In this document: positions 6,287-61,173 of the stretch, one piece after another | Position numbering within the stretch: the stretch's first letter is position 1 | Layout of the letters: each line of letters opens with the position of its first letter | DNA from: Closterium sp. NIES-65 | Taxonomy: Eukaryota > Streptophyta > Zygnematophyceae > Desmidiales > Closteriaceae | Direction of reading: 5' to 3' | NCBI GenBank assembly: GCA_948144175.1 | Contig: CANXME010002319.1 | Coordinates: 226,765 to 290,764 of the forward strand | DNA: 64,000 nt | Program-made: the position numbers and the translations under genes | Notes under the pieces: generated by a model | Told to the model about the DNA's origin: nothing | Databases searched by the model: none | What the model saw: only the letters and a program-made list of their open reading frames with translations

Positions 6287-6291
6287 TCCTG

Positions 6292-9590: not shown

Positions 9591-9599
9591 CCCCTCAGG

Positions 9600-12974: not shown

Positions 12975-12979
12975 TCCTG

Positions 12980-14204: not shown

Positions 14205-14288
14205 GACGTCACGTTTGACGAGTCGGTTCCTTACTACCGTCTCTTCCCCTACCGCACTGCGCCCCTCCCCCCGCCGCCACTCTTCCTT

Positions 14289-15790: not shown

Positions 15791-15800
15791 GCAGCCAGCC

Positions 15801-19798: not shown

Positions 19799-22700
19799 AT
19801 GGAAGCCGACTGGGAGTTAGATTCAGACAACGAGGGAAAGCGATGGAGTCTCGGCCCGGCGTTCGACGACGCGGGTCAGCTCTCAGACGACGACCTTCTC
19901 ACTGACCTCGGGAGTACCGCCGCCATTCGAGGCGGCGATCTTCTCACTGACCTTAACGGTACCGCCATTCGAGACGGCGACCTTACTACGAGCAACCTCG
20001 AGAGCACCGCCGTTAGCGGCGGTTTCACTAGTGGTGTCGCCGGAAGAGACGGCCAAAGTAGCGATGCGAGCAACGGCGCGGGGATAAATCGCACGTCGCA
20101 GGCCAACGGCGCGTCAAACCTTAACGGCTCGCTAGACTATAACGGGAATAGTGAAAGTTCTGATCGACCTGGAAACGAGGAGGCCTTGCGATCCGCTGGC
20201 GGCATAGACGGCGAAGCTGTCAGTCTACGCGCTGCGGACGAGGGGAGGGAGTCCCAGGTCAATTTTGCGCGAGCCAACGGGTCGCGCGACGCCGGGGAGC
20301 AGAGCGTGAGGGTAGCTGCGCAGTTGGAAGTCTGCGCGGAGCAGAGCGGGGCTGGCGACGTGGGTGGCAGAAGGGAGGACACAGCAGATGGAACGCATGT
20401 AGCGGCAGTTGCGCCTGAATTGGCGCCGCATAGGGAGGAGCGGAGTGCTGAGTCAACAGGGCCGTCAGTGAGTTCACTCGCGCCCGATTTAGCGCCAGAA
20501 GAAACGTCCGCCGGAGGATTGGCAAACGGGAGCGGCGAGTGGGTGGGGAAGGAGCCTGCGGAAGGTGTGAGGGAGGCCAATGGTGCAACGGATGCAGACG
20601 AGGGGAGACGAGGGCAAGGAAAGAGTGGTAGTGAGGAGAGCAGCGCAGTGAATAGGTCGGGGGAGATTAGGGTCGGTTTGAAGGACATAAAGAGGAGTGG
20701 CATGGGGAGTAATGGTGGGAGTGGGAGCTTTGTAGCGAGTGTGAGCGATAGGGGTAGCGGGAGCGGTATTGGTGGCGGTAAACCAAGTGACAAGGGGAGA
20801 GCAGTGATTGGAAAGGCGCAGGTGGGAAGTGGAGTGGGGGCGCGGATACAGACGGGCGAGGCGGGGGGAGCGGGAGGAGGGGGAGGGGCAGGGGGAAGGG
20901 TAGAAGGGGGATCGGGGCGGATGTCAGTCCGCCAGCAGAGCCCTCGCCCTTCCGCTGCCTTCGCCTCCCCCACACGCTCAGGCCCTGGCACCAGGGGGAT
21001 AGCACCAGGGGGAGGGGGAAGCGGAGGAGGCGGAACAAGAGGGGCGCAGGGGGTGGTTGGCCGGTCGCCTTCAGAGGAGCGAAGGAGGGCAAACACGGGC
21101 AGTCCGGGCAGCAGAGGCAAGTCCGACAGCCCTGCCAGGAGAGGCAGTCCGGGCAGCTTGGGCAGCGTTAAACGACCGGATTGGGCGAGCGGGATTGGCC
21201 CGCTGACCAGCAGTTACAGCCCAGAGCTAGCGGGCAGGAAAGCAGGGGGCGGGGGGATGGGGGGTTTGGGTTCTTTATCCCTGGACCGGCATAGCATTGC
21301 TGTGACTGGGAGGTGGAGTGATCCCGGGTGGTTGGGCATCAGGGGAAGGGCAGGGGCGCTGGGGGGGGCGCAAGGGGGAGTGCAAGGGGGAGCGCAAGGG
21401 AGAGTGCAGGGGGGAGCTTTGGGGGGAGTGCGGGGAACTGTGGGGCAAAGTGCGGAGAGAGCAGTGGTTGCAGGGAAGGGGAGTGGGCGCGTGGGGAGTC
21501 CGAGTGGAAGGAGGGATGCAGCGCCAGGAACAGCAGGGGGGAAGGCAGGGGGGAGATTCGAGGGGGCGGATAGGGCGGGTGTGAGTGGCGCAGCAGGGAG
21601 GGCCGGGGGAAGTCCTTTGAGACGAAATGGCGCAGCAGGGGGGAAGGCGGAAGAGAGAGCAGGAGGTGTTGGCGGGGGACGAGTAGGTGAGAGAGCAGGC
21701 AGTGGGGGCGGGGGTGGGGGACGAATAAGCCCTAGTCGTGTAGGCTCAACAGCGGCATTCGCATCCCCATCACTTGCAGCATCAGCGTCAGTGGCAGGAG
21801 GAAATGCGAGTGCAAATGCGAGTGCCCGCAGGCGGATAGCCTTTGGCAGCAGTGTGAGCTTCAACGCGGCTGCCTCGTCATATTCCCCCCCGTCAAGCTC
21901 TGTCGCTGCTCCCACTGCCGCCTCTCTTGCCAGGCGAGCCGCCAACCTCCGCTCCCACCTCGCCTCCCTCACCTCCTCCCCCACTTTCACCGCCCCTACT
22001 GCTGCCCCTGTTGCTGCCTCTGCCACTCGCGCAACACCTGCTGCTGCCGCTGCCACTGCAGCTGCTGTTGCTGGGGCTGCCACGCGTAGGAGCATGGGTA
22101 CAGGGAGCAACAGTACCTCTGCATCTCAATCTGCGTCTCACTCTGCTTCTGCCTCTACCTCGGGTTCCGCGCCTGTCTCTGCACACCCCTCTGTTTCCAG
22201 CAGCCCAGTCGTTGCCCCAACGCCTGCCCCTTGCGATCCCCCACTGACTGCTTTTGAGGCGCCTCAAAAGTCGTCTCACTCTCAATTTGCCTCTGCCTCT
22301 GCCTTGGGTTCTGCACCTGCCTCTGCATACCCCTCTGTCTCCAGCAGCCCTGTCGTTGCCCCAACGCCCGCGCCTTGTGATCCCCCACTGACTGCTGCTG
22401 GGGTTCCTCCTGGCATTTATGAGGGTATGCAGGGCGTTTCCCCTGCTGTCAACAGTGCATCCTCATCATCTGATCCCTCCCCTGATGTGGTCAACACCAC
22501 CAGCACCTTCACTTCTGCTGCTGCTGCTGCTGCTGCTGGTGGTGGTGAATCCAATGCTGCTGTTGCCGGCAGTGATCGAATGGGTGACACTGTGAGTGCT
22601 GTAGATAGGGTAGGAAGTGTGGAGTTGGAGGTGGGGAGAGATGAGGGAAGAGAGGAGGAAAGGGAGGAGAGAACAGAGGAGGGAAGAGAGGTGGACGAAA

Positions 22701-23254
22701 GCGTGGTGGAGGAAAGAGAAGAGGATGAAGGGATGACTCTGCAGGAGATTAGCGGTGACAAGCAGGCGGGGACAAGAGATCAAGACCAAGTAGCAGAGGG
22801 ATGGGAGAAGGAGGAGGAGGAGGAAGGCGGCAAGACAGACTCGCTAAAGACAGCAGAGAGGTCAACACAAGCAGCAGAAGCCAGTGCTGCGATGCCTAAC
22901 GCGATTCCCAGCATGCACAGCCTTGTGACAGCACCTGCTGTCACACCAGCAGCTGTAGTGTCATCCGCTGCAGCAGCATCAGCATCAGCATCACCAAGCA
23001 AGCCATCACAACAACCAGCGTCTCCAGTACCATCATTGCTATCACCGTCACCATTACCATCACCATCACGGTTATCATCACTGGCAGGGTCAAGAGGAGC
23101 ATCATCACCAGCAGCAACGGGAGCATCAATGCCAGTATCATCACCAGAACGAGGAGGAGGAGGAGGGGGAGGGAGCTTGGGTGGCAGGGCAAGAGTGTCG
23201 CCTAGAGAGCTGCGGGTGATGCCGGGTCCTGATGTGCGCGGCACAGATGACACG
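19799..23254 (+). CDS. AIR9: AIR9 exon 1: acidic then basic Ser/Gly-rich microtubule-binding region
   Basis: The 1152-codon first exon opens MEADWELDSDNEGKRWSLGP, continues acidic for about 200 residues, then becomes Gly/Ser/Arg-rich (RRGSPGSLGSVKRPDWASGI, repeated GGAQGG units) and Ala/Ser/Pro-rich. In AIR9 the basic Ser-rich segment binds microtubules. A coding repeat (about 22140-22395, two copies of a segment ending PTPAPCDPPLTA) is split by a perfect palindrome that encodes FEAPQK. The exon ends RVMPGPDVRGTDDT before a GTGGGT donor that is itself repeated. The region is three times longer than expected, mainly through low-complexity expansion. Confidence 0.8.
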
Positions 23255-24365
23255 GTGGGTGGCAGAGATGACACGGTGGGTGGCAGAGATGACACGGTGG
23301 GTGGCAGAGATGACACGGTGGGTGGCAGAGATGACACGGTGGGTGGCAGAGATGACATCCTGCCTCCTCTTTTCCCCAACCCCCTCTGCCTCCCCTCTCC
23401 GGCACATTGACCTGTGTTCGCAGCGCATTAGAAGCCGCAAGGCCAACATGCTGCACCTGCACACATCCCCCCTTCACCATCACCCATGTAGCCCCCCCCC
23501 ATCCCATCTCCCCTTTCCAGCACATTGACCTGCGCTCGCAGCGCATCAGAAGCCTCAAGGCCCACACGCTGCACCTGCACACACATGTGCCGTCGTCCTT
23601 CTCCTCTCCTCCCCCCTCCCCTCTCATCATCATCCCTCAGTCCCCTTCTTCAGCGTGTGCTCGCAGCGCATCACAAGCGCCCCCCCTCAGTCCTCTTCTC
23701 CTCCTCCCTCCTCTTCTCCTTCCCCCTCCCCTCTCATCCCCATCCCTCAACTCCCCCCTACCAGCGCGTTGACCTGCGGTCGCAGCGCATCAGAAGCCTC
23801 AAGGCTGACACCCTGCACCTGCCGCCTTCTCCCCCTACACACATTCCGTAACCGTCCCTCCCTCCCTCCTCCCCTACATCTCCCCTTCCCCCCTCATTCC
23901 CCCTCACCAGCGCGTGGACCTGCGGTCGCAGCGCATCACAAGACTCAATTCCCACACGCTGCACCTGCACACACACGTCATCCGCATTCCCCCTTCCCCG
24001 TCACCCATGTAACCCCCCCTGATCCCACCTCCCCTCAAATCACCAGCGGGTGGACCTGCGGTCGCAGCGCATCAGAAGCCTCAAGGCAGATACGCTGCAC
24101 CTGCCGCCTGCTGCTCAGGTGGGCTTGTGGCAGGTGCTGCTCAGGTGCTGCTCAGGTGCTGCTCAGGTGCTGCTCAGGTGTGGGGCAGTGGGCTCACCGT
24201 GGCTGAGGCAGGCGCTATAGACTGTGTGGGTGTGCGTGCCTCATGGGGTCGCATGCCTGTTGATGCCCCTGCGCTTCTGATTCTGCTTGTGTGCCCTTAT
24301 TCGTACCCCCGTTTGCTAACGTCTGCGTGTGCATGTCTGTGTGCGTGTGTGTGCGTGCGTGTGTG

Positions 24366-24412
<47 letters not shown>

Positions 24413-27400
24413 CTGTGTGCATACATATGTGCATGTGTGCTTTCATCCATGTGTGCATGCATGCGTGCATCCATGTCACAGTTTGTGTATCTGAGGGGCA
24501 ACAAGCTGACAGCAATGGACGGCATCGAGCGTCTCAAGAAGGTCAAGGTGAGTCAACGCTGGTCAAGGTGAGTCAACGCTGGTCAAAGCAAGCTCAAAGC
24601 GAGTCAAGGCCAGTGAGTTCAAAGGAAGCTCACAACAATGGACGGCATCGAGCGACTAAAAAAGGTCAAGGAGAGACAACGCTGGTCAAGGTGAGTCAAC
24701 GCCGGTCAAGGTGAGTCAACAAGGTCAAAGCTGGTAAACAAAGTAAAAAAAGGTGCTAACCATGAGCCACAACTCAGCCCCGTGCGTGCTCTCCCTCCTC
24801 TCTCCCCATCCCTGCTTCAAACCCTCCCCTTCCACCCCATCTCCCCCACCGGGCCCTAGACGTGAGCTGCAGCCAGCTGACCTCTCTGTTCCACCACTCC
24901 ATTCTCTCCAATCTCCCCCCCCGCGGCCTGCCTTCCCCCCACCGCCCCCTTCCCCCTTCATCAGTGCCCGCCTTCCCCCCACCGCCCCCTTCCCCCTCCA
25001 CCTCCCCAGGTGCTAGACCTGATCTACAGCCAGCTGACCTCACTCTTCCACCTCTCCCTTCTCGGCAATCTCCCCCCCTCCTCCACCACCCCAGGTGCTA
25101 GACGTAAGCTACAACCAGCTGGGAGAGGCTTCCCTGGCGCCACTAGCTGCATGCGCGTCCCTGCAGGTGAGTGACAGACAACGGTGAGGAGGATTTGAGT
25201 GCGGTGAGAAGGAGTCAGCACGGGGCGTGCACCACACCCACCCCAGGTGCTAGACGTGAGCTACAACCAGCTGGGAGAGGCTTCCCTGGCGTCACTAGCT
25301 GCATGCGCGTCCCTGCAGGTGAGTGACAGCGAGGCGGCGGTGAGGAGGAGTTGTGTGCGGTGAGGAGTCACGTGTGGTGAGAAGGAATATTGTGTGGTGA
25401 GAAACAGCTGTGTGCGGTGAGAATGAGTGCATCATCCCATTCCTTATGTCCTGGACGTGAGTTACGACCAGCTGCCTCCTTGGCGCTGGTGCTTGATTGT
25501 GCCGTCGCGGATGGACTCGTTAAAGGTTGTTTCATCACAAAGCACAGCCCTGTGCTCTCTCAGTCCTGTCCCCACGCCGGGACTGCAGCTCCAGTCCCGA
25601 AGCTGGGACACGCGGTGCAGGTGGTGCAGCGTATGAGCGGTCGGTGCAGCGTATGAGCGGGCGGTGCTGTGTTCAACACTCACGCTCACCACTGTGACAA
25701 ATGCTTCTTCCCCTGCCCCTCTCCTTCTCTCCGAACTCTCTCCCCCTTTCCCACAGCAAGTATTCCTGGGCGGGCAACCACATCGCCTCCCTCGCATCTC
25801 TTTTGAGTCAGCTCAGAAGTCCGTCTCCTTTCCCCCTTTCTCCCACTTTCTCCCCCTCCCCCTTTCCCCCAGCAACTATTCCTAGCGGGCAACCACATCT
25901 CCTCCCTCACATCTCTTTTGAGTTGACTGAAAAGTTGCTCCTTTCCCCCCATCTCCCCCTCCCTTCTCCCCACCACAGCAACTGTTCCTGGCGGGTAACC
26001 ACATCTCCTCCCTCGCATCACTGCCTCGACTCCCCTCCCTCGAGGCATGGGTCCTGCTATTTTCCCATGCCCACGCCACACCCACACTACACGCACGCCA
26101 CACCCACGCCACACCCACGCCATGCCCATACTACTCCCACGCTACTCCCACGCTACTCCCACGCTACTCCCACGCTACTCCCACGCCATGCCCATGCCAT
26201 GCCTGCTCTTTCCCATGCCATGCCCACGTTCTCCTTACCTTCGTGCCTCCTGCTTCACACTCGTTCCATCCAATGCAACCGTTGCCATGCACACTGTTTC
26301 TCTCTCCCCTCCCCATCCCCCTCTCTCCTACCCTCAGCTGCTTCTCTCTCCTCCCACCCCAACCCAACCCCTCTTCACCTCTGTTCCCTCTCTTTCCTTA
26401 CTCCACCCCATGCTTTCCCCCGTCCGTTCTCCCACCCACCCTGTCACCCATCCACCCTCCCGTCACCCACCCACCCCTCTACCCACTACACCCCTCAGTT
26501 TCTCTCAGTGTCTCAGAATTCGCTCTGTCTCATTGACATGCCGTCCCAACCCCGCCTCAAGGTGCGCATCCACAACCTGTCTCAACCGAGCTGAACCGAG
26601 CATAGCACAAACACACCCCCCTCCCTACTGCACCCGCCAGTTCCTCTCCTGCCACCAATCTTCCTGTCTCTCTGTTTTCCAATCTGCCCCTCTCTCTGTT
26701 TTCCAATCTGCCCCTCTCTCTGTTTTCCAATCTGCCCCTCTCTCTGTTTTCCAATCCGCCCCTCTCTCTGCTTTCCAATTTGCCCCTCTCTCTGTTTTCC
26801 AATCCGCCCCTCTCTCTGCTTTCCAATCCGCCCCTCTCTCTGTTTTCTAATCTGCTCCTCTCTTTTCCACCAGGTGCTCACAGCCAGTAGCAACAGCATC
26901 GCCTCCTTCGAATCTAGTCGGATTTTGAGAGCCCTCTGAAACCATCTCTCTGCCAATTCGCCTCTTTCTTCTGCCTCTCTTTGCCCACACACAATCTGCC
27001 CCCTCCAGGTGGTCACAGCCAGCAGCAACAGCATCGCCTCCTTCGAATCCTTCCCCCTCCTGCCCGCTCTGGAGGTCCGTGCCCCACCTTGCCCCACCTT
27101 GCCCCACCTTGCCCCACCTTGCCCCACCTTGCCCCACCTTGCCCCACCTTGCCCCACCTTGCCCCACCTTGCCCCACCTTGCCCCACCTTGCCCCACCTT
27201 GCCCCACCTTGCCCCACCTTGCCCCACCTTGCCCCACCTTGCCCCACCTTGACCCACCTTGACCCACCTTTCCCCACCTTGACCCACCTTTTTCCCACCT
27301 TGACCCACCTTTTTCCCACCTTGACCCACCTTGCCCTTCTTACCCGCCCTAGAGGCCCCTGCCCCACCTTGCCCGCCTACCTATCCATGCTCCGAGTGCC

Positions 27401-30400
27401 ATGCCCTCTGAGCCCTGTGCCCCATGCTCCATGTACCCGTGTTCCATGCCCTTTGTGCTCTTTGCTCCGTGCCATGCAACTCTCCACCCCCTAGAGGACG
27501 CCCCTGCTCCCCCCATAGAGGGTAGCTGAGAGGGGCAGCGCCAATAAGCCTCTCCTTCGCTCCCTCCCTTTCCCCCTTCTCCTGCGCCCAACTAACAGCA
27601 CCTGCGTCTGGACGACAACCCAATAGAGGACGTCCCTGCTCCCTCCATAAGGGATAATTGTGAGGGGCAGAGCCAGCGAACCTTCCTCTTCTACCTCCCT
27701 CTCCCCCCCCCACCAACTAACAGCACCTGCAACTGGATGACAACCCCATAGAGGACGCCCCTGCTCTCCTAATCGAGGAGAACAGTGAGGGGCCTCAGCC
27801 TTGTTCTCCTTCACCCTTTCCCTCTTTACCCCCCTTCAGCACCTGCGTCTGGACGACAACCCAATAGAGGACGCCCCTGCTCCGCACTTGGCTGCCATTC
27901 TGCTCGCCGCCTCCTCTCTTCTCTCCTTCAACTCCTCAGGTGCCTCCTCCTCCTCCCTGCTCTCCTTATCCTGCAGGGTGTTTTTGAGAATTCTCAAAAA
28001 CATCCTCCTCCCTGCTCTCCTCACCTTCCTTGTCTTGTATCCCTCCCCTCCTTGTATTTATTCTCAGACATAAATGCAGCAGCTTGTGCTTCATGTTTGC
28101 GCGTGCGCACCTCTGCATGTGTGCGCGCCTCTGCATGTGTGCGCGCCTCTGCATGTGTGCGCGCCTCTGCATGTGTGTGCGCCTCTGCATGTGTGCGCGC
28201 CTCTGCATGTGTGCGCTTCTGTGTGCCTGTGTGTGTGCGTGCATGCGTGCATGTCTCTGTGTGTTTACCCGTGGATGTGCGCACGCGCATGCATGCATGC
28301 ATGTGTGTGTGAGCAGCTATAAGTGATGATGAGCGTTTAGCAGTGGAAGAAGCGGGGGGAGGGCACGGGCCCATGTGTGTGCGCATGGGATGGCTGCCTC
28401 CGTCCCCTTCCATTAGCGACATACCAGGTACCACCTGTGGTGGGTGAATGGCGCTTGCAGGCTCACAAGGTGGGGTTGGGAGGGGAGGGCACGGGCCCAT
28501 GTGTGTGCATGGGGTGGCCGCCGCCGTCCCCTCTAATTGATGTCATACCAGGTAGGTACCACCTATGTCTCTGCTCCTCACAGCAATTGCTTGCTACAGG
28601 TGCCCACATGTGTGGGGGGAGGGCACGGGCCCATGTGTGTGCGCATGGGATGGCTACCACCACCTCTTCCTCTGCTCCTCACCTCACCCACCCCTGCCCC
28701 TCGTGTAATGAGTCGAGTTTTGAGTCGACTCAAAACCGGGCCCATGTGTGTGCGCATGGGATGGCTACCACCTCTTCCTCTGCTCCTCACCCACCCCTGC
28801 CCCTCCCCTTGCCCCTGCACCTCCACCTGTTCCTACCACTGTCCCTGCCCTCACATTCATCTGGCCCCCCTCCCCCCTCCCCCCTCTCGTCTCTCACCTT
28901 CCCACTCCCCATTCCCCCTTCCCCTCTCCCTCGTTCCCTCCTCCCTTCTTCCCTCTCCCCACTTCCCCAGCCTCCCTGGTGTCTTTCCTGGCGGCCCACT
29001 GGGCACCCATGCTCCCTGCCGGCTACACCCTTTGCCTCGCTGCTGCTGGACCGCCCCATACCTTTTCAATCCCTCAACTGTGTGTGCCTGCCCTGTGTCT
29101 CCGTTCCCCCCCCACCTCCCCCTGTCCTCCCAGCCTCCCTGGTGACCTTTCTCGCCACCCACTGGGCATCAACGCTTCCTGCCGGCTTCACCCTCTCGTC
29201 GCTGCTGCTCGACCGGCCCATAGAGGACCGCCCCTGCCACTGCCGCCTGCTGCTGCAGCGCACTGGTGGTGGTGCACGGGCGAGGGAGGATGGGGAGGAG
29301 GATTGGGGCGAGGATGGGGTGAAAGATGGGGGGCAGGATGGGGGGAAGGATGGGGGGAAGGATGGGGGGAAGGATGGGGGGAAGGATGGGGGGAAGGATG
29401 GGGGGAAGGATGGGGGGAAGGATGGGGGACCAGATAGGGAGGAGGTTGTGGGTGAGGATGTGGGAGTTGAAGAGAGAGAGGAGGGAGTTGGGCCAAGGGA
29501 GAGGGGAAAGGAGAGGGAGGGAGGGGAGGAGGAATCATCAGTGTCATCGGGTGTGGCGATGCGGTATGAGTGGCTGCGGCGGGGCAAAGGGGCTGCGGAG
29601 TTCAGCGCCATTCCCGATGCTGAGGGGGAGGTGAGGAGGCATCTTTGAAAAATTTCAGGGCGATAAGAAAGTGGGAGGGCCATGTGTTCTCTTTCGCCAC
29701 TGCCCACCCTCCCACCCTTTGGGCCACCATAGCCATTGCTATATCCTGCTCATCACAACCACTGCTACACTACACTGGCCTTGGCCCACAACATTCATCA
29801 AATCCCAACCCATCTCACTACACACACCCCTTCTCAGATGTGCATGCATGCCTTGCTGTGCGGTGCACCTTTTGCCTCCATGCCTTGTCGTATTTCTCAA
29901 TAAGCTTACTGTCCACCCTCTCTCATCTCATCCCACCAGATGTACACGCCCTCCTTCTCAGACGTGCGCGTGTCACTCACCGTCCGTCCTTCCCACACCC
30001 GTCCCTCCATCCCACCACCCTGTCGCCCATCCCACCACCCTGTCGCCCATCCCACCACCCTGTCGCCCATCCCACCACCCTGTCGCCCATCCCACCACCC
30101 TGTCGCCCATCCCACCACCCTGTCGCCCATCCCACCACCCTGTCGCCCATCTCACCACCCTGTCGCCCATCTCACCACCCTGTCGCCCATCCCACCACCC
30201 TGTCGCCCATCTCACCAGGTCTACACGCCCTCCTTCTCAGACGTGCATGCGTGTCTCGCTGTGCGCTGCACCCCGCTGCTCCACGGCCAGCCCTGCACGC
30301 CCCTTATCCTCACCACGCCGCTGGTCGTCCCTGGTAGGTCCCCTCTCCCACTCCCAGGGGTTGTGTTTTCTCAGACGTGCATGCGTGTCTCGCTGTGTGC

Positions 30401-33400: not shown

Positions 33401-36400
33401 GTGGTGTGAGGGGGTGTGGTGTTGTTTGGTGAGGTGCAACCCTCTCCATCCACTCTTCCCACCACCCTCTCTCCTTTCCCCTCCTCAGACTAGTGCCAGT
33501 GGGCGAGGGCAGAGAGTACGCAGTGCAGGCGGACGATGTGGGCTGCTACCTGCTGCTGCGCTACACGCCAGTCGCCTCCTCAGGTGATGCACAGCATACA
33601 CATGGGTTGTGCTGCTGGTGCTGTGTGCTGCTGCGCTACACACCGCTCGCCTTCAAATAATTTCATGTGGTTCCAGGTGGTTCCATCCAGGTCATTCGTC
33701 CCTCATCCCACTGCATCGGGTTTCTGCATGCATTTCTCGTCTCAACAACCCCTTGTCAGTTACCCCTTGTCACCTCATCCCACTCCTCATCACCGCATCT
33801 CTGTACCACTGAGCAGGTCTGATCGGAGAGCCAGTCACAGCGCGCTCGCCTATCATCTGCCTCCGTACGTGCCCTTCCCTCCCTTTGCTTCCCTTCACTT
33901 CCTGCCCTGCCTTTCCCAGCCTTTTCCATCCCATCCTTGCCTTCCCGTCCCTTCCTGTCCTGCCTTTCCTTGCCATTCCCCTCTGTTTTCGTCCCCTGCT
34001 TTCCCTTGCCTTCCCTTTTCCTGGTTTTCCCTACCTCGCCCTACTCTGTCGGGTACATGGGCAAACGAGTCTAGTTTTTCCTCGACTCGTTTGAGGGACT
34101 CAAAAAGCTTGAGTTTCAAGTTCGTGTTTTTGGCAAAAAAACTCGGCCGAGTCGAGTTTTACTTCCGAGGTACAAAAAACTCATGAAAAAACTCGGATTT
34201 TTTTAGACTCGCGGGATTTATGTATCGTATGCGAGTCTTAAACAAACTCACGCGTCAAATGTCCCACCAGAGGTGGGGTACAAATGCCAGAATTTTCAAA
34301 AATTCAGATCTGGTTTTCCTCCTTTCCAGATCTGAGAAGTAGTACCATTTTTTTTTTGTTGTTTCTAGGAGGTCTACGCAACCTAGTTCAGTCCAATCAT
34401 CCTTCGTTTTCTTCTTAAGGTAAATTGCGTTTTGTCGGGTTGAAGTTGGGTGGAAGGACAATACCACCCGCATCCAAACCTGCACCTCAAACCTGCACCT
34501 CAAACCTGCACCTCAAACCTGCACCACAAACCTGCACGTCAAACCTGCACCTCAAACCTGCACCTCAAACCTGGACCTCAAACCTGCACGTCAAACCTGC
34601 ACCTCAAACCTGCACCTCAAACCGGCACCTCAAACCTGCACCTCAAACCTGCACCTCAAACCTGCACGTCAAACCTGCACCTCAAACCTGCACCTCAAAC
34701 CTGCACCTCAAACCTGCTCGTCAAACCTGCACCTCAAACCTGCACCTCAAACCTGCACCTCAAACCTGCACCTCAAACCTGCACCTCAAACCTGCACCTC
34801 AAACCTGCACCTCCAACCTGCACCTCAAACCTGCACCTCCAACCTGCACCTCAAACCTGCACCTCAAACCTGCACCTCCAACCTGCACCTCAAACCTGCA
34901 CATCCAACCTGCACCTCCAACCTGCACCTCAAACCTGCACCTCCAACCTGCACCTCAAACCTGCACCTCCAACCTGCACCTCCAGCCTGCACCTCAAACC
35001 TGGACCTCAAACCTGCACCTCCAACCTGCACCTCAAACCTGCACGTCAAACCTGCACCTCAAACCTGCACCTCCAACCTGCACCTCAAACCTGCACCTCA
35101 AGCCTGCACCTCAAACCTGCACCTCAAACCTGCACCTCAAACCTGCACCTCCAACCTGCACCTCAAACCTGCACCTCCAACCTGCACCTCCAACCTGCAC
35201 CTCAAACCTGCACCTCCAACCTGCACCTCAAACCTGGACCTCCAACCTGCACCTCAAACCTGCACCTCAAACCTGCACCTCAAACCTGCTCGTCAAACCT
35301 GCACCTCAAACCTGCACCTCAAACCTGCACCTCAAACCTGCACCTCAAACCTGCACCTCAAACCTGCACCTCCAACCTGCACCTCAAACCTGCACCTCCA
35401 ACCTGCACCTCAAACCTGCACCTCAAACCTGCACCTCCAACCTGCACCTCAAACCTGCACCTCCAACCTGCACCTCCAACCTGCACCTCAAACCTGCACC
35501 TCCAACCTGCACCTCAAACCTGCACCTCCAACCTGCACCTCCAGCCTGCACCTCAAACCTGCACCTCAAACCTGCACCTCCAACCTGCACCTCAAACCTG
35601 CACGTCAAACCTGCACCTCAAACCTGCACCTCCAACCTGCACGTCAAACCTGCACCTCAAGCCTGCACCTCAAACCTGCACCTCAAACCTGCACCTCAAA
35701 CCTGCACCTCCAACCTGCACCTCCAACCTGCACCTCAAACCTGCACCTCCAACCTGCACCTCAAACCTGCACCTCCAACCTGCACCTCCAGCCTGCACCT
35801 CAAACCTGCACCTCAAACCTGCACCTCCAACCTGCACCTCAAACCTGCACGTCAAACCTGCACCTCAAACCTGCACCTCCAACCTGCACCTCAAACCTGC
35901 ACCTCAAGCCTGCACCTCAAACCTGCACCTCAAACCTGCACCTCAAACCTGCACCTCCAACCTGCACCTCAAACCTGCACCTCCAACCTGCACCTCCAAC
36001 CTGCACCTCAAACCTGCACCTCCAACCTGCACCTCAAACCTGCACCTCCAACCTGCACCTCAAACCTGCACCTCCAACCTGCACCTCCAGCCTGCACCTC
36101 AAGCCTGCACCTCAAACCTGCACCTCAAACCTGCACCTCAAACCTGCACCTCAAACCTGCACGTCAAACCTGCACGTCAAACCTGCACCTCCAACCTGCA
36201 CCTCAAACCTGCACCTCAAACCTGCACCTCAAACCTGCACCTCAAACCTGCACCTCAAACCTGCACCTCAAACCTGCACCTCCAACCTGCACCTCAAACC
36301 TGCACCTCCAACCTGCACCTCCAGTCTGCACCTCAAACCTGCACCTCAAACCTGCACCTCCAACCTGCACCTCAAACCTGCACGTCAAACCTGCACCTCA

Positions 36401-39400: not shown

Positions 39401-42400
39401 AAGGGCAGGCCTGTGGTCGCCGTGTCCTCTGCTGCAGTCACAGGTGTGTGAATGGTAGGCCTGTGTACTAGTGCAGTGCGGTCACAGGTGTGTGAATGGT
39501 AGGCCTGTGTACTAGTGCAGTGCGGTCACAGGTGGGTGAATGGTAGGCCTGTGTACTAGTGCAGTGCGGTCACAGGTGGGTGAATGGTAGGCCTGTGTAC
39601 TAGTGCAGTGCGGTCACAGGTGTGTGAATGGTAGGCCTGTGTACTAGTGCAGTGCGGTCACAGGTGTGTGAATGGTAGGCCTGTGTACTAGTGCAGTGCG
39701 GTCACAGGTGGGTGAATGGTAGGCCTGTGTACTAGTGCAGTGCGGTCACAGGTGGGTGAATGGTAGGCCTGTGTACTAGTGCAGTGCGGTCACAGGTGGG
39801 TGAATGGTAGGCCTGTGTACTAGTGCAGTGCGGTCACAGGTGGGTGAATGGTAGGCCTGTGTACTAGTGCAGTGCGGTCACAGGTGGGTGAATGGTAGGC
39901 CTGTGTACTAGTGCAGTGCGGTCACAGGTGGGTGAATGGTAGGCCTGTCTACTAGTGCAGTGCGGTCACAGGTGTGTGAATGGTAGGCCTGTGTACTAGT
40001 GCAGTGCGGTCACAGGTGGGTGAATGGTAGGCCTGTGTACTAGTGCAGTGCGGTCACAGGTGTGTGAATGGTAGGCCTGTGTACTAGTGCAGTGCGGTCA
40101 CAGGTGTGTGAATGGTAGGCCTGTGTACTAGTGCAGTGCGGTCACAGGTGTGTGAATGGTAGGCCTGTGTACTAGTGCAGTGCGGTCACAGGTGTGTGAA
40201 TGGTAGGCCTGTGTACTAGTGCAGTGCGGTCACAGGTGTGTGAATGGTAGGCCTGTGTACTAGTGCAGTGCGGTCACAGGTGTGTGAATGGTAGGCCTGT
40301 GTACTAGTGCAGTGCGGTCACAGGTGGGTGAATGGTAGGCCTGTGTACTAGTGCAGTGCGGTCACAGGTGTGTGAATGGTAGGCCTGTGTACTAGTGCAG
40401 TGCGGTCACAGGTGTGTGAATGGTAGGCCTGTGTACTAGTGCAGTGCGGTCACAGGTGTGTGAATGGTAGGCCTGTGTACTAGTGCAGTGCGGTCACAGG
40501 TGGGTGAATGGTAGGCCTGTGTACTAGTGCAGTGCGGTCACAGGTGTGTGAATGGTAGGCCTGTGTACTAGTGCAGTGCGGTCACAGGTGTGTGAATGGT
40601 AGGCCTGTGTACTAGTGCAGTGCGGTCACAGGTGGGTGAATGGTAGGCCTGTGTACTAGTGCAGTGCGGTCACAGGTGTGTGAATGGTAGGCCTGTGTAC
40701 TAGTGCAGTGCGGTCACAGGTGGGTGAATGGTAGGCCTGTGTACTAGTGCAGTGCGGTCACAGGTGTGTGAATGGTAGGCCTGTGTACTAGTGCAGTGCG
40801 GTCACAGGTGTGTGAATGGTAGGCCTGTGTACTAGTGCAGTGCGGTCACAGGTGTGTGAATGGTAGGCCTGTGTACTAGTGCAGTGCGGTCACAGGTGGG
40901 TGAATGGTAGGCCTGTGTACTAGTGCAGTGCGGTCACAGGTGTGTGAATGGTAGGCCTGTGTACTAGTGCAGTGCGGTCACAGGTGTGTGAATGGTAGGC
41001 CTGTGTACTAGTGCAGTGCGGTCACAGGTGTGTGAATGGTAGGCCTGTGTACTAGTGCAGTGCGGTCACAGGTGTGTGAATGGTAGGCCTGTGTACTAGT
41101 GCAGTGCGGTCACAGGTGTGTGAATGGTAGGCCTGTGTACTAGTGCAGTGCGGTCACAGGTGTGTGAATGGTAGGCCTGTGTACTAGTGCAGTGCGGTCA
41201 CAGGTGGGTGAATGGTAGGCCTGTGTACTAGTGCTGTGCGGTCACAGGTGTGTGAATGGTAGGCCTGTGTACTAGTGCAGTGCGGTCACAGGTGTGTGAA
41301 TGGTAGGCCTGTGTACTAGTGCAGTGCGGTCACAGGTGGGTGAATGGTAGGCCTGTGTACTAGTGCAGTGCGGTCACAGGTGGGTGAATGGTAGGCCTGT
41401 GTACTAGTGCAGTGCGGTCACAGGTGGGTGAATGGTAGGCCTGTGTACTAGTGCAGTGCGGTCACAGGTGGGTGAATGGTAGGCCTGTGTACTAGTGCAG
41501 TGCGGTCACAGGTGTGTGAATGGTAGGCCTGTGTACTAGTGCAGTGCGGTCACAGGTGGGTGAATGGTAGGCCTGTGTACTAGTGCAGTGCGGTCACAGG
41601 TGGGTGAATGGTAGGCCTGTGTACTAGTGCAGTGCGGTCACAGGTGTGTGAATGGTAGGCCTGTGTACTAGTGCAGTGCGGTCACAGGTGGGTGAATGGT
41701 AGGCCTGTGTACTAGTGCAGTGCGGTCACAGGTGTGTGAATGGTAGGCCTGTGTACTAGTGCAGTGCGGTCACAGGTGGGTGAATGGTAGGCCTGTGTAC
41801 TAGTGCAGTGCGGTCACAGGTGGGTGAATGGTAGGCCTGTGTACTAGTGCAGTGCGGTCACAGGTGTGTGAATGGTAGGCCTGTGTACTAGTGCAGTGCG
41901 GTCACAGGTGTGTGAATGGTAGGCCTGTGTACTAGTGCAGTGCGGTCACAGGTGGGTGAATGGTAGGCCTGTGTACTAGTGCAGTGCGGTCACAGGTGGG
42001 TGAATGGTAGGCCTGTGTACTAGTGCAGTGCGGTCACAGGTGTGTGAATGGTAGGCCTGTGTACTAGTGCAGTGCGGTCACAGGTGGGTGAATGGTAGGC
42101 CTGTGTACTAGTGCAGTGCGGTCACAGGTGGGTGAATGGTAGGCCTGTGTACTAGTGCAGTGCGGTCACAGGTGGGTGAATGGTAGGCCTGTGTACTAGT
42201 GCAGTGCGGTCACAGGTGTGTGAATGGTAGGCCTGTGTACTAGTGCAGTGCGGTCACAGGTGTGTGAATGGTAGGCCTGTGTACTAGTGCAGTGCGGTCA
42301 CAGGTGGGTGAATGGTAGGCCTGTGTACTAGTGCAGTGCGGTCACAGGTGGGTGAATGGTAGGCCTGTGTACTAGTGCAGTGCGGTCACAGGTGTGTGAA

Positions 42401-45400
42401 TGGTAGGCCTGTGTACTAGTGCAGTGCGGTCACAGGTGGGTGAATGGTAGGCCTGTGTACTAGTGCAGTGCGGTCACAGGTGGGTGAATGGTAGGCCTGT
42501 GTACTAGTGCAGTGCGGTCACAGGTGTGTGAATGGTAGGCCTGTGTACTAGTGCAGTGCGGTCACAGGTGTGTGAATGGTAGGCCTGTGTACTAGTGCAG
42601 TGCGGTCACAGGTGTGTGAATGGTAGGCCTGTGTACTAGTGCAGTGCGGTCACAGGTGGGTGAATGGTAGGCCTGTGTACTAGTGCAGTGCGGTCACAGG
42701 TGTGTGAATGGTAGGCCTGTGTACTAGTGCAGTGCGGTCACAGGTGTGTGAATGGTAGGCCTGTGTACTAGTGCAGTGCGGTCACAGGTGGGTGAATGGT
42801 AGGCCTGTGTACTAGTGCAGTGCGGTCACAGGTGTGTGAATGGTAGGCCTGTGTACTAGTGCAGTGCGGTCACAGGTGGGTGAATGGTAGGCCTGTGTAC
42901 TAGTGCAGTGCGGTCACAGGTGTGTGAATGGTAGGCCTGTGTACTAGTGCAGTGCGGTCACAGGTGGGCGCGTGGATGGCATGACCGGTTGGTGCCAGTG
43001 AGGGCAGATGGCGTCAAGTGTCGCCCCTTGACCTTGGTGGCCGGTGGCCGTGTCCTCTGCTGGGACAGGCTTCAGATTCACTCTTTTCCCTGCTCTGCAT
43101 TGCCCTCCCCTGCACTGCATTGCCCTCCCCTGCACTGCATTGCCCTTCACTGCACTGCATTGCCCTTCCCTGCACTGCATTGCCCTTCACTGCACTGCAT
43201 TGCCCTTCCCTGCTCTGCATTGCCCTTCCCTGCACTGCATTGCCCTTCCCTGCTCCTTCTACCCTCTCTCCTCCCGCCCAGAGGGCGAGCCGCAGGTGCT
43301 GAGTGCGGACATGGAGGGGGAGGAGGAGGAGGGGGGTGTGCTGGTGGGGTATTACACGTACCAGGGAGGGGCCGAGGGGGACTCGCTGCTCGAGTGGTAC
43401 CGATATGCGGTGAGTGGCATTGAAATGCGGTGAGCAGTGGGGAAATGCGGTGGGCAGTGGTGTAATGCGGTGAGCAGTAGCGAAAATGCAGTGATTGACA
43501 GCACTTCCCCTTTTCCCAGCCACCACCTTCTAAGTTCCAACCACCCAACCACCCACCCCCCCTCTCTGCCGCCCAGGACGAGGATGGCCAGCCGGGGCCA
43601 CACGGCGAGTTGGTAGAAGACGAGGACGGCGAGCAGCCGCGGATGGCAGGGGGCGGCATGAGTCGGCATGTTCCGTCCGCTAGCGACGTGGGCTGCTTCC
43701 TCTCCTTCCGCGTCACCCCTGTGCGATCCGACGGGGCGGTCGGCACCCCCCAGGCTGTCTGCACGGCCGGCCCGATCCGGGCGGCGCTGCCGTCCGTTAG
43801 TGACGTGTGGGTGGAGGGCGATCTGGTGGAGGGCGGGCGGCTGGTGCCCAGGTGGACGTATGCGGGCGGCAGACAGGGGAACACACGCGTGCAATGGTTC
43901 TCGGTACGTGCTGTGCAGTGATTGTTGAGACGCCTTAGGAATCGGCAGGAGAGCACACATATACTTCATCCACTTGCCCATCTGTATGCGGGCGGCAGGC
44001 AGGGGAACACGTGGGTGCAGTGGTTCTCGGTACGTGCGAGTCCCTTATTGCACAACGAATCTATAGGCACCTCAGAAATTGGCAGGGAGAACACGTGCGC
44101 TCTTGGTTAGAGAACCTTCGCTGCATCCACTTGTCCTTCCGTATGCGGGCGGCAGGCAGGACAACACGCGTGTGCAATGGTTCTTGGTATGTGTGAGCAG
44201 ATTCCCTTGTCCCTCTCCATCTGCACTGGCTGGCTTGTAGGCTTGCTTCGTTTGGGCCGCCAGCCCAGCATGCTGCTAATACTGAGCTCTGCCACTCATT
44301 TGTTAGCACCCACATGATCACCACTCACCTTCCTATCTGGCCTGACTTGACCCCAACAACCTTCCTCCCCAACCCCCTTCCCCACCCATCCCCACCGCAC
44401 TCCATCCCTGCAGATGCTGCCCGACATGAGTGACAAGCGCCGCATTCACCCAGCAGGCGCGCTAGGGGGAGAGGGGGGGCTAGAACAGGGCGGGGGGGGG
44501 GAGGAGGAGGGGGAGGAGGAGGAGGGGGGGCTGCGAGTGGGGGCGGAGGAGGTGGGGCGGGTGGTGATGGTGGTGTGTGTCCCAGTGAGGGATGATGGGG
44601 AGGAGGGCGCGGCTGTTGAGAGCAGTCCCGTGGGACCCATCATGCCAGGTAAGGAGCAATGCAAAGAAGGGGGAGGGGATGGGGAGAAGAGGCAGGAAGG
44701 GGTGCGGTGAGAGGGGCTGGCAGGGGGTGAGGGATGATGGGGAGGAGGGCGCGGCTGTCGAGAGCAGTCCTGTGGGACCTATCATGCCAGGTAAGGGGGC
44801 AAGGGAGGGGGGCTGGCAAGGGAAGAAGGGGTTAGAACAGGAACAGGGTGGTGGTGGTGGTGTGCGTGCCTGTGAGAGACGACGGGGAGGAGGGCGCTGC
44901 TGTGGAGAGCAGTCCTGTGGGACCCACCATGCCAAGTAAGGGGTAAGGGAGAGGCGAGGGGGGGTAGGACGGCAGCAGCAAGGGGAGATAGGACTGCACG
45001 GGGTGAGGGGCGATGGGGAGGAGGGGGGCGCTGCTGTTGAGAGCAGTCCTGTGGGATGGGACCTATCATGGGATGAGCAGTCCAGGTAGGGGACGCGGCA
45101 AAGGGTAGGGTAGGCAGGTGAGGCAAGAGGAGGGGTAGGGTATGGGAATGGCAGCAGGGGAAGGTGGGAGGCTGCTCACCTGGGTTGGAGGGAGATAGGA
45201 CTGCATGGGGTGAGGGGCGATGGGGAGGAGGGCGCTGCTGTGGAGAGCAGTCCTGGGGGACCCATCATGGCAGGTAGAGTTTGCTGGTGGAGGGGTGAGT
45301 GGGGGAGAGGGTGAAGAGAGAAGACAGCTAGGGGTGTGGATGGTAGAGGGCAGCACGGGGTGCGGGACGATGGGGAGGAGGGCGCGGCCGTGGAGAGCAG

Positions 45401-48400
45401 TCCTGTGGGGCCCGTCATGGCAGGTAGGAGGCAAAGGAGGGAAAGAGGCAAGGAGGGGCGAGAGGGGCTGGAGGTGAACAAGTGGCTGCCAGCTCTCTTC
45501 TTGTTGTGTGTTCATCTTAGTGCTACGGCTCATCGCTACACGCTTCAGCCCACTTCCAAAGTTTCTCTCCTCTCCACTTTTCTCCCCCCTTGTCATCCCC
45601 CTCTCCCCCCCCCTCCGCCCTCACAGCCCCCCCAGCGTATGTGCATCTGGCAGCGGATGGCGATGTGAGGCTGGGAGGGGTCCTTTCACGCACTCACCTC
45701 CTCCATTCTTCTCCTTACCCTCGCCTCCTCCCCCCCACCTCCCCCCCTCCGCCCTCACAGCCCCCCCAGCGTGTGTGCATCTGGCAGTGGAGGGCAATGT
45801 GAGGCTGGGAGGGCAGCTCACCTGTCGAGCGCTCTACCATGGCGGGTAATGTGCTTCGCCCTGCCTTTGCTTCGCCCTGCCTGTGCTTCGCCCTGCCTGT
45901 GCTGTGCATGTCTGCAAGCACTACAGCTTTTCTCCCTCTCTGTCCCCTGCTGCTTGTTTTCTCATGTACCCCATCCGCCCTCCTCCATGCGCCCCCCTCC
46001 CCCTGTGTGCCCCGTCTGCCTCCCACGCATGCCCCATCCGCCCCCCCGGAATCTGCCCTTCCTATGCGTGCAGGCAGCAGGGCGAGTGCCGGGTGGCATG
46101 GGTGAGAGTGGCGGCCACAGGGGAGGAGCAGCTCGTTGGGCGGCAAGGTGAGAAACTATGAGTTGCAGGTGCGGGGATTTTGACCCGGAATACGCACTCT
46201 GAATTGATCCATACCCACGTGCTGCGTCCATCCCTCCCTACCGCCTCCCATGCTGGTACACACACGGTGACAGCAGAGGACGTGGGGAGGCGGCTGCAAG
46301 TGGAGTTCACTCCACGGTGTCAGGGGAGGACGCACTCTGTCTTTGAGCTGCCTCTTTCCGAGCCGTACACACAACTTTGAACGATCTCCCCGCCCTGCGT
46401 GCCTCTCTGCCTAACCGCCCCCCCTGTCCTGTGCAGGCACGTACAGGGTAACAACAGAGGACGTGGGGAGTCGGCTGCGAGTGGAGTTCACTCCTGTGCG
46501 GGCCGATGGGGCTGCTGGGGAGGTTTGCACCCATTTCTGAGGCGCCTCTCTGACTGAAGGTTTCCTCTCGCCCTGCCTGCCTCCCTACCCCCCCTATCCC
46601 CTGCGTAACACCTGCAGGCACGTACACAGTGACAGCAGAGGACGTGGGGAGTCGGCTGCGAGTGGAGTTCACTCCTGTGCGGACCGATGGGGTCGTTGGG
46701 GAGGTGGCTGCTGTCACCACCGATACAGTCACACCAGGTACCCTCCTTTCTGGCTGTCGCTGCTACAGTCACTCCTGTGTGGGCTGATGGGGCTCTTGGG
46801 GAGGCGGCTGCACTCACCACCAGCACAGTCGCACCAGGTGCTCAGCAATAACTGTGCTGGATAAGCCATGAAGCACAGACAGCTTCATGGCTGCTGCTTG
46901 AAAGCTGCCACAGGCACACCATGCATGCACGTCACGGCTGCTGTTGCAATTTGAGATGGATAAGGTAGCCCACATTTGAGATGGATAAGGTAGCCCACAT
47001 TTGAGATGGATAAGGTAGCCCACATTTGAGATGGATAAGGTAGCCCACATTTGAGATGGATAAGGTAGCCCACATTTGAGATGGATAAGGTAGCCCACAT
47101 TTGCCACCGGCCGCTCACCTGCTCTTCCTGTTTCTGACTCCCCCCTGCTCCGCCACTCCCCCACTCCCGTGGCCCCCCACGCCCCTGCTTTCTTCCTCCC
47201 CTGCCTTACAGACCGCCGTGTGTGCATTAGTGTGTTGGAGGGGGGCGTATTGCAGGCAGGAGGGGAGATGCTAGAGTGTGCTGCAGCGGGGGAGAGGGGA
47301 GGGGGAGAAGGCGGGCTGGGGGAGGGGAGATCAGGGGAGGGTGGAAGGGGAGAAGGGGGAGCGGGGGAGGGGGATGTGTGGGTGGTGTGGTACAGGCAGG
47401 GGCGGGATGGGCGGATGGAGCGGATAGAGGGGGCGGAGGGGCGCACGTACGTGCCTCAGGAGGCTGACTACGGCTGCTGTGTGGTGGCGGGGTGAGTTGG
47501 TTTCATTGAGAGGGGATATTGGTATTGGTGCGCTTCAATAAGCGAATAGAGGGGGCGGAAGGGCGCACGTACGCGCCACAGGAGGCTGACTATGGTTGCT
47601 GTGTGGTGGCGGGGTGAGTGGGGTCCCTTAGGGTGGGTGGTGTGGTACAGGCAGGGGCGGGATGGGCGAATGGAGCGGATAGAGGGAGCAGAGGGGCGCA
47701 CGTACGTGCCTCAGGAGGCTGACTATGGCTGCTGTGTGATGGCGGGGTGAGTGGGTATCCGTTGGGGCTGTGTTGACTTGTATGGCTGAATAGGAGTATG
47801 TGGCATGCCATGCCACTGCTCACTCCGTGCCACTCTCACACTCCTGCCTGCACCATTCTCTATCCTTACCAGTTCCCCACTCCCTCCCACACTCCCTCCT
47901 CGCCCCCTCCCCCCTGCCCTACCCCACCAGCTGTCGCCCGTGGCTATCGGATGGCACATGGGTCGATGAAGTGCTCTCTGCTCTGGGTCACATCGTCCCC
48001 CACCCACTCCCAACCCCATTCCCCTTCTTGCCCCCTCACCCTCTCCCTCTCCCTACCCCACCAGCTGTCGCCCGTGGCTATCTGATGGCACATGGGGCGA
48101 CGAGGTGCTCTCTGCTCCGGGGCCCATCGTGCTGCCAGGTAAGTCCTTCCTTGCACGGGTCTGTCTGTGTCGCTGAGTGGGGCTGTGCTGATGGGTGGGG
48201 CTGTGTTGTGCTGATACCCCCTTCGCCTTCTGTTATGCCTCCTCGTCCCCACCACCTCCCACCACCCCGACCAGCCCCCAACATCTTCCACCATCCCACC
48301 CCACCCCCCACCACCACCCACCACCCCTTACCACCCTCCACCATTCCCAACCATTACCACCCCTCACCACCGCACACCAGAGCTGTCGGACGAGGAGGCG

Positions 48401-53180: not shown

Positions 53181-53226
53181 CGGCTGGTACCGCACTGCAT
53201 CGCGCAGCACCACTGTATCAGATGCA

Positions 53227-53420
53227 GCGAGCCCGGGATGTCATGGTGCTCTGCCTGCGTGCGTTCATGCAGCAGCACCGCACTGCCAAGCACCATTAAG
53301 AGCTGGTACCGCACTGCATCGCGCAGCACCACTGTCTCAGATGCAGCGAGCTCGGAATGTCATGGTGCTGTGCCTGCGTGCATTCATGCAGCAGCAGCAC
53401 CGCACTGCCAAGCATTAAGC
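53227..53420 (+). pseudogene. Two echoes of the AIR9 stop-containing exon end
   Basis: Copies at about 53227-53299 and 53346-53417 repeat GCATTCATGCAGCAGCAGCA-type sequence through CATTAA, in the 3' UTR region just after the real stop. The spacer (GGTACCGCACTGCATCGCGC) is repeated as well. Confidence 0.9.
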
Positions 53421-54065
53421 CAGTCATGCGAAGCTGACTGCTGTGCTGAATGGGGGTTAATTCTCTTTCATGCCAGGTGCCCATCTTGCTGCTGCTGTTA
53501 GGAGTGAGCTTAGGATGGGCCGCCGGCTTGGCAGGCTCACTTGAATGTGTTTGTACATTTTTTTCAAAGTTGGGCAATACATAAATATCGACCTGGCTGT
53601 GCACATCCGGCACTGATCCTACATGGCATGGCTAAACTAAACAACTGAAACAAACATAGTGGAAAACAGGCAAGAACAGTTCAAGCAAAAGGCAGAGATG
53701 TGAGTGCGTACGTGTTGGCTTTTGAGGCGCCTCAAAAGGTGACAATGCAAGCCAGCAGAGATGTGAGGGCGCGCTTGTTGGCGCCACCAACCACTCGAGA
53801 ACAAAGCACCCCTTTGAACTGCGAACAATCTGTGAGCACACAGATTGCCTTGCTTGAGCCTCCATCCATTCAGCCCAGAACAAATCCCCTTGTTCTGGAA
53901 AATGTGGAGGCAACTGTGAGCAGCACAGGAGCACCTTGGTGCAGATCTCTTCACAAGGCTGCGGCTGAGAGGCTTGGTTGGCCACCGACTAAGGGGCTGT
54001 GCAGCCATGAGAGCAGCGAGAGCGGCTGTGCATGAGAGGTAGGGGCTAGGGCTAGCAAGGCGTTG
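53421..54065. other. Intergenic region between convergent AIR9 and PNPOx-like genes
   Basis: This should hold the 3' ends of both genes. It contains a 20-bp perfect palindrome (53719-53738) lying between two copies of GCAGAGATGTGAG(T/G)GCG. No coding homology is recognised. Confidence 0.6.
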
Positions 54066-60209: not shown

Positions 60210-61142
60210 ATGGCGTTCCCGGAGCTGCTAGCGCGTCAGGCGTCAATCTACTCACTCACGCTCGACGAATTCCAGGCGACGTTCGCAGGCCCGTCGCACG
60301 CCGTCGCATCCATGCCCATGGACGACTTTCTGCGATCCGTCTGGCTCGCCGAGGAGTCGCAAATGCTCGCCGCCGCGCACGCCGCCGGCGGCGCGGATCC
60401 GCGCGCGCGCGACAAGGCCGCGGGGCTGCTGCGCGCGCGCTCGCTACGGAGGCAGAAGTCCGCCGCAGCGCTTCCCGCGCGCGCAGACTGCGCGGACAGT
60501 TGAAGACGTGTGGAACAGACATTACAGGCCGAACTAGCGGGGGAGGGGGGAGCAGCGGAAGGGGGCGGGCATCGGCGGAAGGTACTCGCGGAGGGGGGGG
60601 GAGGCGCAGCAGCAACAAGCGCAGGGGCAGGGGCAGCAACAAATACGGCAATTGTCGTTTGCAGAAATTACACTGGAAGATTTTTTAGTGCGCGCAGGGA
60701 TTTCGAAGGAAGAGCTAATAGGGGGTATAGCGGCTATAGGGGGAGAGCCGGGGATGGGGAGGAGGCGAATGGCGGGATTGGCAGCAGTGCGCGGGGAGAG
60801 GGGGAGGGCGGAGCCGGCGGGGGCGAGGGGGAAGGTGGAGGGGGGAAAGGAGGGGGGGAACTCACTGGAACGGACGGGCGGATGGGGAGCGTGGGGGCAA
60901 ATGGCCGCAGTGCTGACGTGGCACATGATTCGAAAGCTACAGCCGCGGCAACAGGGTGGGAACTCCACCCACATGCGGGGGCAGCAGGGCAGGCAGGACA
61001 AGCAAAGGTGCCATTCCTGCAGCAGCACAAGAACCAGCTTCACCCGCAGCAGCAGCAGGGGGGGCAGGGCGGAGGCGAGGGAGGGAGAGGGAGAGGAGGT
61101 GGGTGGTGGCGGAGAGGGAGGAAGGGGAGGCGAGCAGGCGTT

Positions 61143-61173
<31 letters not shown>

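Follow-up and report, generated by a model that had tools for sequence, protein, structure and literature searches.

Many thousands of copies of a short palindrome, with most of those examined lying between direct repeats, suggest that the genome of Closterium sp. NIES-65 contains an undescribed and extremely small mobile DNA. The palindrome, TTTTGAGNNNNCTCAAAA, is 18 bp long and was pointed out in an earlier note on 64,000 nucleotides of contig CANXME010002319.1 (C2021:226765-290764 of an 874,075,685-base assembly with 2400 contigs); this whole stretch is referred to here as the window. Based on the copy number, structure and surroundings of the palindrome, it is in our judgment fairly probable that it represents an ultra-short, non-coding mobile family (approx. 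18 - 54 bp), which would enter widely staggered breaks with no preference for particular sites.

The genome-wide frequency check suggested by the earlier note placed the palindrome far above chance, with 30,327 exact occurrences in the assembly as compared to 4 for a reversed-pattern control (55,077 as compared to 102 if up to one mismatch is allowed). The 18-mer with a TCGA core (TTTTGAGTCGACTCAAAA) alone occurs 13,080 times (control: 0), and has 4 matches in a collection of 84,980 prokaryote genomes with 257 billion bases. Exact matches of the TCGA, GCGC and ACGT 18-mers in viral contigs number 0, 1 and 1, respectively, and a viral origin was rejected; flank-repeat scores of these two viral and four prokaryote matches were 14 - 21 only. 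Among the first 120 exact viral-contig matches listed, two had a self-complementary core and none had a flanking repeat score of at least 36; exact matches in viral contigs presumably arise by chance.

The cores and flanks were characterized in a 264-kb sample, consisting of the window and 20 stretches of 10 kb around the first-listed sites on contigs C6, C9 and C10. This sample contains 55 exact sites, i.e., 23 with the core TCGA, 13 with ACGT, 12 with GCGC, 3 with AATT and one each with TTGA, TCAA, AATC and ACAT. Self-complementary cores, which had been proposed for the perfect copies and are present in all four of those in the window, were found in 51 of the 55 sites; the remaining 4 cores are one base off a main core, and no core (0/55) mixes two main classes.

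The proposed association with direct repeats was also found. Fifty exact sites were far enough from an end to be tested, and 36 were left once arrays with less than 130 bp between sites had been collapsed; a repeat was defined by a score of at least 20 within a search reach of 150 bp. Direct repeats flank 34 of these 36 sites, as compared to 51 of 300 random positions and none of 7 other perfect palindromes of the same DNA. The repeats at the 34 sites range from 18 to 145 bp (median 41) and thus have no fixed length. When one mismatch was allowed and a self-complementary core was required, 64 of 74 sites in the sample showed a nearby direct repeat (arrays counted per site). A fixed motif at the duplication boundaries was rejected, as no single base exceeded 26/68 at any position among the 68 outer repeat boundaries, as estimated by alignment. 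Several inserts have a small filler next to them. Outside the repeats, the palindrome is absent, which indicates that it arrived with the duplication.

The 18-mer is the center of longer, class-specific palindromes of up to 54 bp. The full unit of the TCGA class (AGGTGACTTTTGAGTC followed by GACTCAAAAGTCACCT) is present in 321 complete copies in the assembly (control: 0), and the unit of the ACGT class (CACGTG, 9 to 14 bases, TTTTGAGACGTCTCAAAA, 9 to 14 bases, CACGTG) in 193 copies (control: 0). Ten loci with 54-bp units were read with approx. 190 bases of flank; two pairs among them represent the same locus twice, leaving eight distinct loci. At three of these eight, the 54-bp unit is inserted flush between repeats of 15 - 30 bp (L162, 26 bp, exact; L157/L158, a single locus, 15 bp with 1 mismatch; L163, 30 bp with 3 mismatches); these flush cases show that the unit has exact ends. 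Moreover, approx. 38 other places have the L162 unit or one closely resembling it, with a match mostly confined to the unit itself (40 of 358 candidates scored; match mostly to query 188-248), and the AATT-class unit at L147:5828 is likewise dispersed (40 of 124 candidates scored; match to approx. 168-212 of L147:5650-6010).

Arms vary between copies, yet match within a copy. We aligned 11 ACGT-class units, of which 7 were found by their CACGTG ends and 4 were chosen for visibly matching arms, leaving out L163, two duplicates and array units with unlike arms; in this set, which is biased towards symmetry, 94.8% of 270 cells pair, as compared to 78.8 in shuffles. Changes on both sides were observed in 41 of the 270 cells (12.4 in shuffles) and a change on one side in just 1. 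The near absence of one-sided G-U steps, which a selected RNA hairpin would be expected to show, argues for symmetry at the DNA level, where one arm appears to be a copy of the other. Two of 12 loci listed, i.e., arrays on contigs C448 and C562, have unlike arms on the two sides. Among the 13,080 TCGA-class copies, 1417 have a full left arm, 1421 a full right arm and 321 both, with 154 predicted by independence; the arms therefore appear close to independent, and the twofold excess of copies with both arms complete may come from arrays, assembly redundancy and shared age. Reverse-complement copying of the unique flank was rejected as a source of the symmetry, as pairing among 76 distinct sites is 75% at the outermost base, just 0.37 - 0.47 at positions 2 - 7 and approx. 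0.3 further out, and is largely accounted for by the longer arms being conserved.

Some sites have a composite structure. Part of the left repeat copy in the long open reading frame (ORF) of the window (22166-22251) recurs together with the palindrome on contig C670 with 97% identity. The order there is TCTTCCCACTGCCTGC, palindrome, GT, approx. 85 bp of window sequence, palindrome, G, TCTTCCCACTGCCTGC, i.e., a foreign piece with a palindrome at both joints that is bounded by 16-bp duplications. The target duplication at this locus (L166, C670:41760-42090) ends in CCCACTGCCTGC, which is nearly the CCCACTGACTGC that precedes the window palindrome; it is possible that homology guided the copying of the piece into this place. 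A second composite (L139:1822-1868) has two palindromes within one 62-bp duplication. At L140:7157-7233, two palindromes of different class are 59 bp apart, and the duplication of the second insert seems to start near the center of the first palindrome, as if this palindrome had been cut mid-way. Arrays in which a duplication plus palindrome is repeated were observed at L141 990-1155, L143 3440-3669 and L152 6135-6320 (five units each, of 37, 53 and 42 bp, respectively), and in a 27-bp satellite at C43:1010348-1011054, 25 bp represent the TCGA-class unit; it is possible that satellites are born from single insertions.

To place the palindrome among the other duplications of the window, we listed tandem units between 17.5 and 60 kb (periods of 26 - 200 bp, BLAST repeats of at least 30 bp, outside minisatellites). 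The region of an AIR9-like gene contains 33 such units with a median period of 135, and a clear palindrome was found in 3 of them and none in 30; sites 26923, 27982 and 53720 fall outside this list. The palindrome-free units include ones with 96% and 94% identity between copies, and by our reading the duplicated units are often exon-plus-intron pieces. Degenerate palindromes at the other duplications were rejected, as just 3 of the 30 units have one within 4 mismatches, with approx. 2 expected from random fractions. Palindrome-bearing duplications appear shorter than palindrome-free ones, as judged from detection methods that differed between the two. Overall, the 30 units without a palindrome indicate that this gene tends to duplicate in any case and that the palindrome is an optional insert; it is not a general cause of duplication.

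The events that we envisage would begin with a copy of the palindrome entering a double-strand break with nicks approx. 15 - 150 bp apart. Both single-stranded tails would then be filled in, giving rise to long duplications joined by the palindrome, and each side would have its arm trimmed, or not completed, nearly independently of the other. Most likely, a single arm would serve as the template and the second arm would be its copy, with symmetry renewed at each event, and later unequal exchange would turn some sites into arrays of duplication plus palindrome. The earlier note had offered a hairpin that provokes duplication, a repair signature and a mobile element as three options. The last of these is best supported, by the dispersed copies, the defined 54-bp ends and the flanking duplications; the repair signature is retained in part, as there is neither a fixed duplication length nor a fixed boundary sequence, as in staggered-break end joining, and most duplications of the gene are palindrome-free. 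The hairpin, for which just 3 of 33 units have a clear palindrome, is not supported in general: the palindrome is not found outside the repeats and most listed duplications lack one, so that breakage of a hairpin or cruciform as the trigger for duplicating the surroundings is highly improbable, even though arrays of duplication plus palindrome exist and, in one case (L140:7157-7216), a second duplication appears to start near the center of a first palindrome.

Ordinary end joining would suffice if ready-made palindromic duplexes or hairpins from arrays were ligated as filler into staggered breaks, with end trimming and no dedicated mobility. We consider this possible, if doubtful: the 30 of 33 palindrome-free units attest to a break-and-duplicate process that exists on its own, small filler accompanies several inserts and palindrome arrays exist as a possible source, but untrimmed 54-bp units sit flush at three loci, a single family occupies the 36 tested sites with other palindromes at such junctions in 0 of 7 cases, and the same or similar arm variants are dispersed to tens of places. 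Two-ended templated end joining seems to us rather unlikely; here an enzyme with its own template, likened to telomerase, would add the same tail (e.g., ending in AGGTGACTTTTGAGTCGAC) to both broken 3' ends, and the self-complementary tips GTCGAC, GACGTC, GGCGCC or GAATTC would pair before fill-in. Pairing of the tips would account for the nearly always perfect center, and such tails would also lead to almost independent arm stops, to mostly one arm variant per copy with occasional mixtures (as on C448 and C562), to the lack of mixed-class cores (0/55) and to palindromes at both joints of the C670 piece. It is unlikely that a reverse transcriptase of the long interspersed nuclear element type inserts a short hairpin RNA by target priming. 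Variable-length duplications and partial copies, as in our sites, are features of retrotransposition by elements without long terminal repeats, but no boundary or endonuclease motif was found at the 68 boundaries, one-sided (G-U type) arm intermediates occupy 1 of 270 cells, and there is no fixed 3' end with truncation confined to the 5' side, as left and right arms are complete about equally often (1417 and 1421 of 13,080). Miniature inverted-repeat transposable elements (MITEs) are short, non-coding, high-copy elements with inverted repeats, and are mostly longer than our units, with a duplication of fixed length set by a transposase. Smallness, lack of coding capacity, inverted repeats and copy number are thus alike, whereas the fixed duplication and the greater length are not. 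That a transposase mobilizes the palindrome as such a non-autonomous DNA transposon is quite improbable: an inverted-repeat structure spanning the whole unit, defined 54-bp ends and thousands of copies would fit, but duplications vary from 18 to 145 bp and a form with a long interior was absent from the 21 non-palindromic TTTTGAGTC/GC/AC/AA contexts listed in 264 kb, a limited look that did not extend to a genome-wide search.

Several observations weigh against the insertion of a mobile family, which we nevertheless favor. Neither an enzyme nor an autonomous partner was found, and no genome-wide search was made for either; we also know of no transposase with duplication lengths that vary this much. 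The assembly is partly redundant, with several loci present two or three times on different contigs at 96 - 100% identity, i.e., with haplotypes or duplicates kept apart; copy numbers are therefore inflated, and distinct sites represent perhaps about half to a third of the assembled copies. The 36 tested sites come from first-listed contigs and the window rather than from a random draw, and 2 of them (10 of 74 at up to one mismatch) had no repeat by the test used. Among the loci with 54-bp units, L156 has no repeat, L165 has 8 bp plus 8 bp of filler, L159/L164 has a 27-bp repeat and 11 bp of filler, and the repeats of L160 and L161 are longer but imperfect. Finally, the comparison of alleles suggested by the earlier note did not yield a palindrome-free allele at any of six loci, i.e., window 27982 and 28718 (where the filled state is inferred from unbroken matches) as well as the assembled copies of L162, window 22252, L137:4468 and L147:5828. 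In the other assembled copies, these sites all either contain the palindrome or fall within a continuous match, so that insertion is deduced from the repeats and not seen; since assembled copies share each insert, the tested insertions predate the divergence of 0 - 4% between them.

Small tandem duplications were reportedly attributed to end joining of staggered breaks by Vaughn and Bennetzen in 2014. In the available portions of two sources (PMC8355091, PMC5730883), staggered-break end joining is likewise described as yielding small tandem duplications. As envisaged for our sites, the stretch between nicks on opposite strands is duplicated, with variable length and no site specificity; those portions do not mention a constant palindromic insert, whereas the filler in Closterium belongs to one family (30,327 exact cores) rather than being random or local. 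In kind, the family is nearest to short clusters of mitochondrial DNA that are palindromic and mobile. The GC clusters of yeast mitochondrial DNA (GC42) are tens of bases long, palindromic and dispersed, and have been proposed to be mobile, with a putative target-site duplication and an unsettled mechanism (PMC4478555). They resemble our family as short dispersed palindromes with a duplication, but are mitochondrial and have a two-base AG target site (PMC4478555), whereas the Closterium copies are nuclear, number many thousands and have duplications of approx. 15 - 150 bp. Repetitive hairpin-forming elements of sponge mitochondria (PMC2800124) and double-hairpin elements of fungal mitochondrial DNA (PMC5910586) are also short hairpin-forming repeats that seem to spread; they are organellar, and the portions available do not mention long duplications such as those of the nuclear sites described here. 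A nuclear counterpart of the mitochondrial palindromic clusters was not described among the matches listed in a search of open-licence literature.

Within the window, the palindrome has 4 exact occurrences and 7 with up to two mismatches, as compared to 0.08 on average, and never more than 1, in 100 shuffles. The four perfect copies start where the earlier note had placed them (22252, 27982, 28718 and 53720) and lengthen to 20, 24, 20 and 20 bp when extended; the three imperfect copies were likewise recovered, with 1, 1 and 2 mismatches at 25801, 25916 and 26923, respectively, and the addition of FEAPQK to the product of ORF 19799-23410 was correct. The + strand of the window has eight TTTTGAG heptamers, seven of which belong to these seven sites. 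A location at the boundary between tandem copies was confirmed for the seven sites, where the left repeat copy stops 0 - 15 bp upstream and the right copy begins 1 - 61 bp downstream, whereas the weak copies that the earlier note gave at 46341 and 46535 were rejected as members because both have more than 4 mismatches (5 at 46341) and are thus at chance level. With up to five mismatches, 59 sites were observed in the window as compared to approx. 73 in shuffles, and with up to four, 19 as compared to 10, an excess of only about twofold. The palindrome-like sites 43923-43940 and 44060-44077, which lie in neighboring repeat units and have 4 mismatches each, may be decayed members. The window alone represents moderate evidence, as 146 of 1414 grid positions of the same region, a gene full of local duplications, pass the same layout test; repeat scores of the seven sites were also not separable from those of 600 random window positions, 15 - 38% of which scored equally high (minisatellites included in this control). 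By our reading, the units at 25740..26022 are exon-like copies, of which the first two end at the palindrome while the third continues, and the last perfect palindrome would lie past the 3' end of the AIR9-like gene.

Table 1. Palindrome copies and associated repeats in the window
Feature	Position	Strand	Details
Direct repeat around the 22252 palindrome	22136..22395	+	Copies 22136-22251 and 22280-22395; 116 bp, 14 differences; period 144
Palindrome CTTTTGAGGCGCCTCAAAAG, GCGC class	22251..22270		In frame within large ORF 19799-23410; adds FEAPQK
Tandem units of ~115 bp, AIR9-like gene region	25740..26022	+	
Palindrome copy TTTTGAGTCAGCTCAGAA	25801..25818		One arm mismatch
Palindrome copy TTTTGAGTTGACTGAAAA	25916..25933		One arm mismatch; repeated unit shared with 25801; period 115, 2.5 copies
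Palindrome copy TTTTGAGAGCCCTCTGAA	26923..26940		2 mismatches; flanked by copies 26867-26914 and 27002-27049
Palindrome TGTTTTTGAGAATTCTCAAAAACA, AATT class	27979..28002		Flanked by 19-bp copies 27948-27966 and 28003-28021
Palindrome GTTTTGAGTCGACTCAAAAC, TCGA class	28717..28736		Flanked by copies 28626-28702 and 28737-28805
Weak copy of the earlier note	46341..46358		Non-member, chance level
Weak copy of the earlier note	46535..46552		Non-member, chance level
Palindrome CTTTTGAGGCGCCTCAAAAG, GCGC class	53719..53738		Flanked by copies 53676-53719 and 53742-53782

The surroundings of these sites show that the palindromes described here are nuclear and not mitochondrial, as the assembly comprises 874 Mb and the window contains the AIR9-like gene as well as copia-type retrotransposon reading frames (1138-17314; Pfam RVT_2 and gag_pre-integrs). 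AIR9 genes occur in land plants and the algae related to them, so that the gene points to a streptophyte; after the first 17 kb of the window, a profile search found AIR9 A9 domains (IG_AIR9, E = 9e-16 and 5e-23) and the AIR9 PH-like domain (PH_AIR9, E = 2e-8), and exon boundaries were read manually. An element that is hAT-like by its ends (TAGGCATGGGCAT and ATGCCCATCCCTA), with a flanking 8-bp duplication (GTCCAACC) and an interior rich in CGGGTCG repeats, occupies 38190-39148. An origin of the palindrome as an excision footprint of this element was rejected, since its ends do not contain TTTTGAG and its duplication is 8 bp long. The AT-rich stretch 34054-34260, with many CGAGTC, ACTCG and GAGTCGAGTTTT motifs, is a possible further element; the 12-mer GAGTCGAGTTTT is common to this stretch and the insert at 28710. 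Very large minisatellites are located at 34475-37466 and 39433-42966 (a 13-bp unit with approx. 230 copies and a 44-bp unit with approx. 80 copies), and the reading frame 60652-61947 has a weak bZIP match under the Pfam cut-off.

Nuclear mobile elements are usually defined by the ends that their enzyme recognizes and by a characteristic duplication. The family described here has no room for a gene or a promoter, and one of its copies lies inside a long ORF. If it is indeed inserted as mobile DNA, it would to our knowledge be the smallest nuclear mobile sequence known, and its copies would represent a large natural record of the repair of staggered breaks; if templated tails were instead added to broken ends, this would be a new way of mending chromosomes. 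In either case, every site would record something that happened at a break, which makes it possible to test within one genome how short tandem duplications arise.

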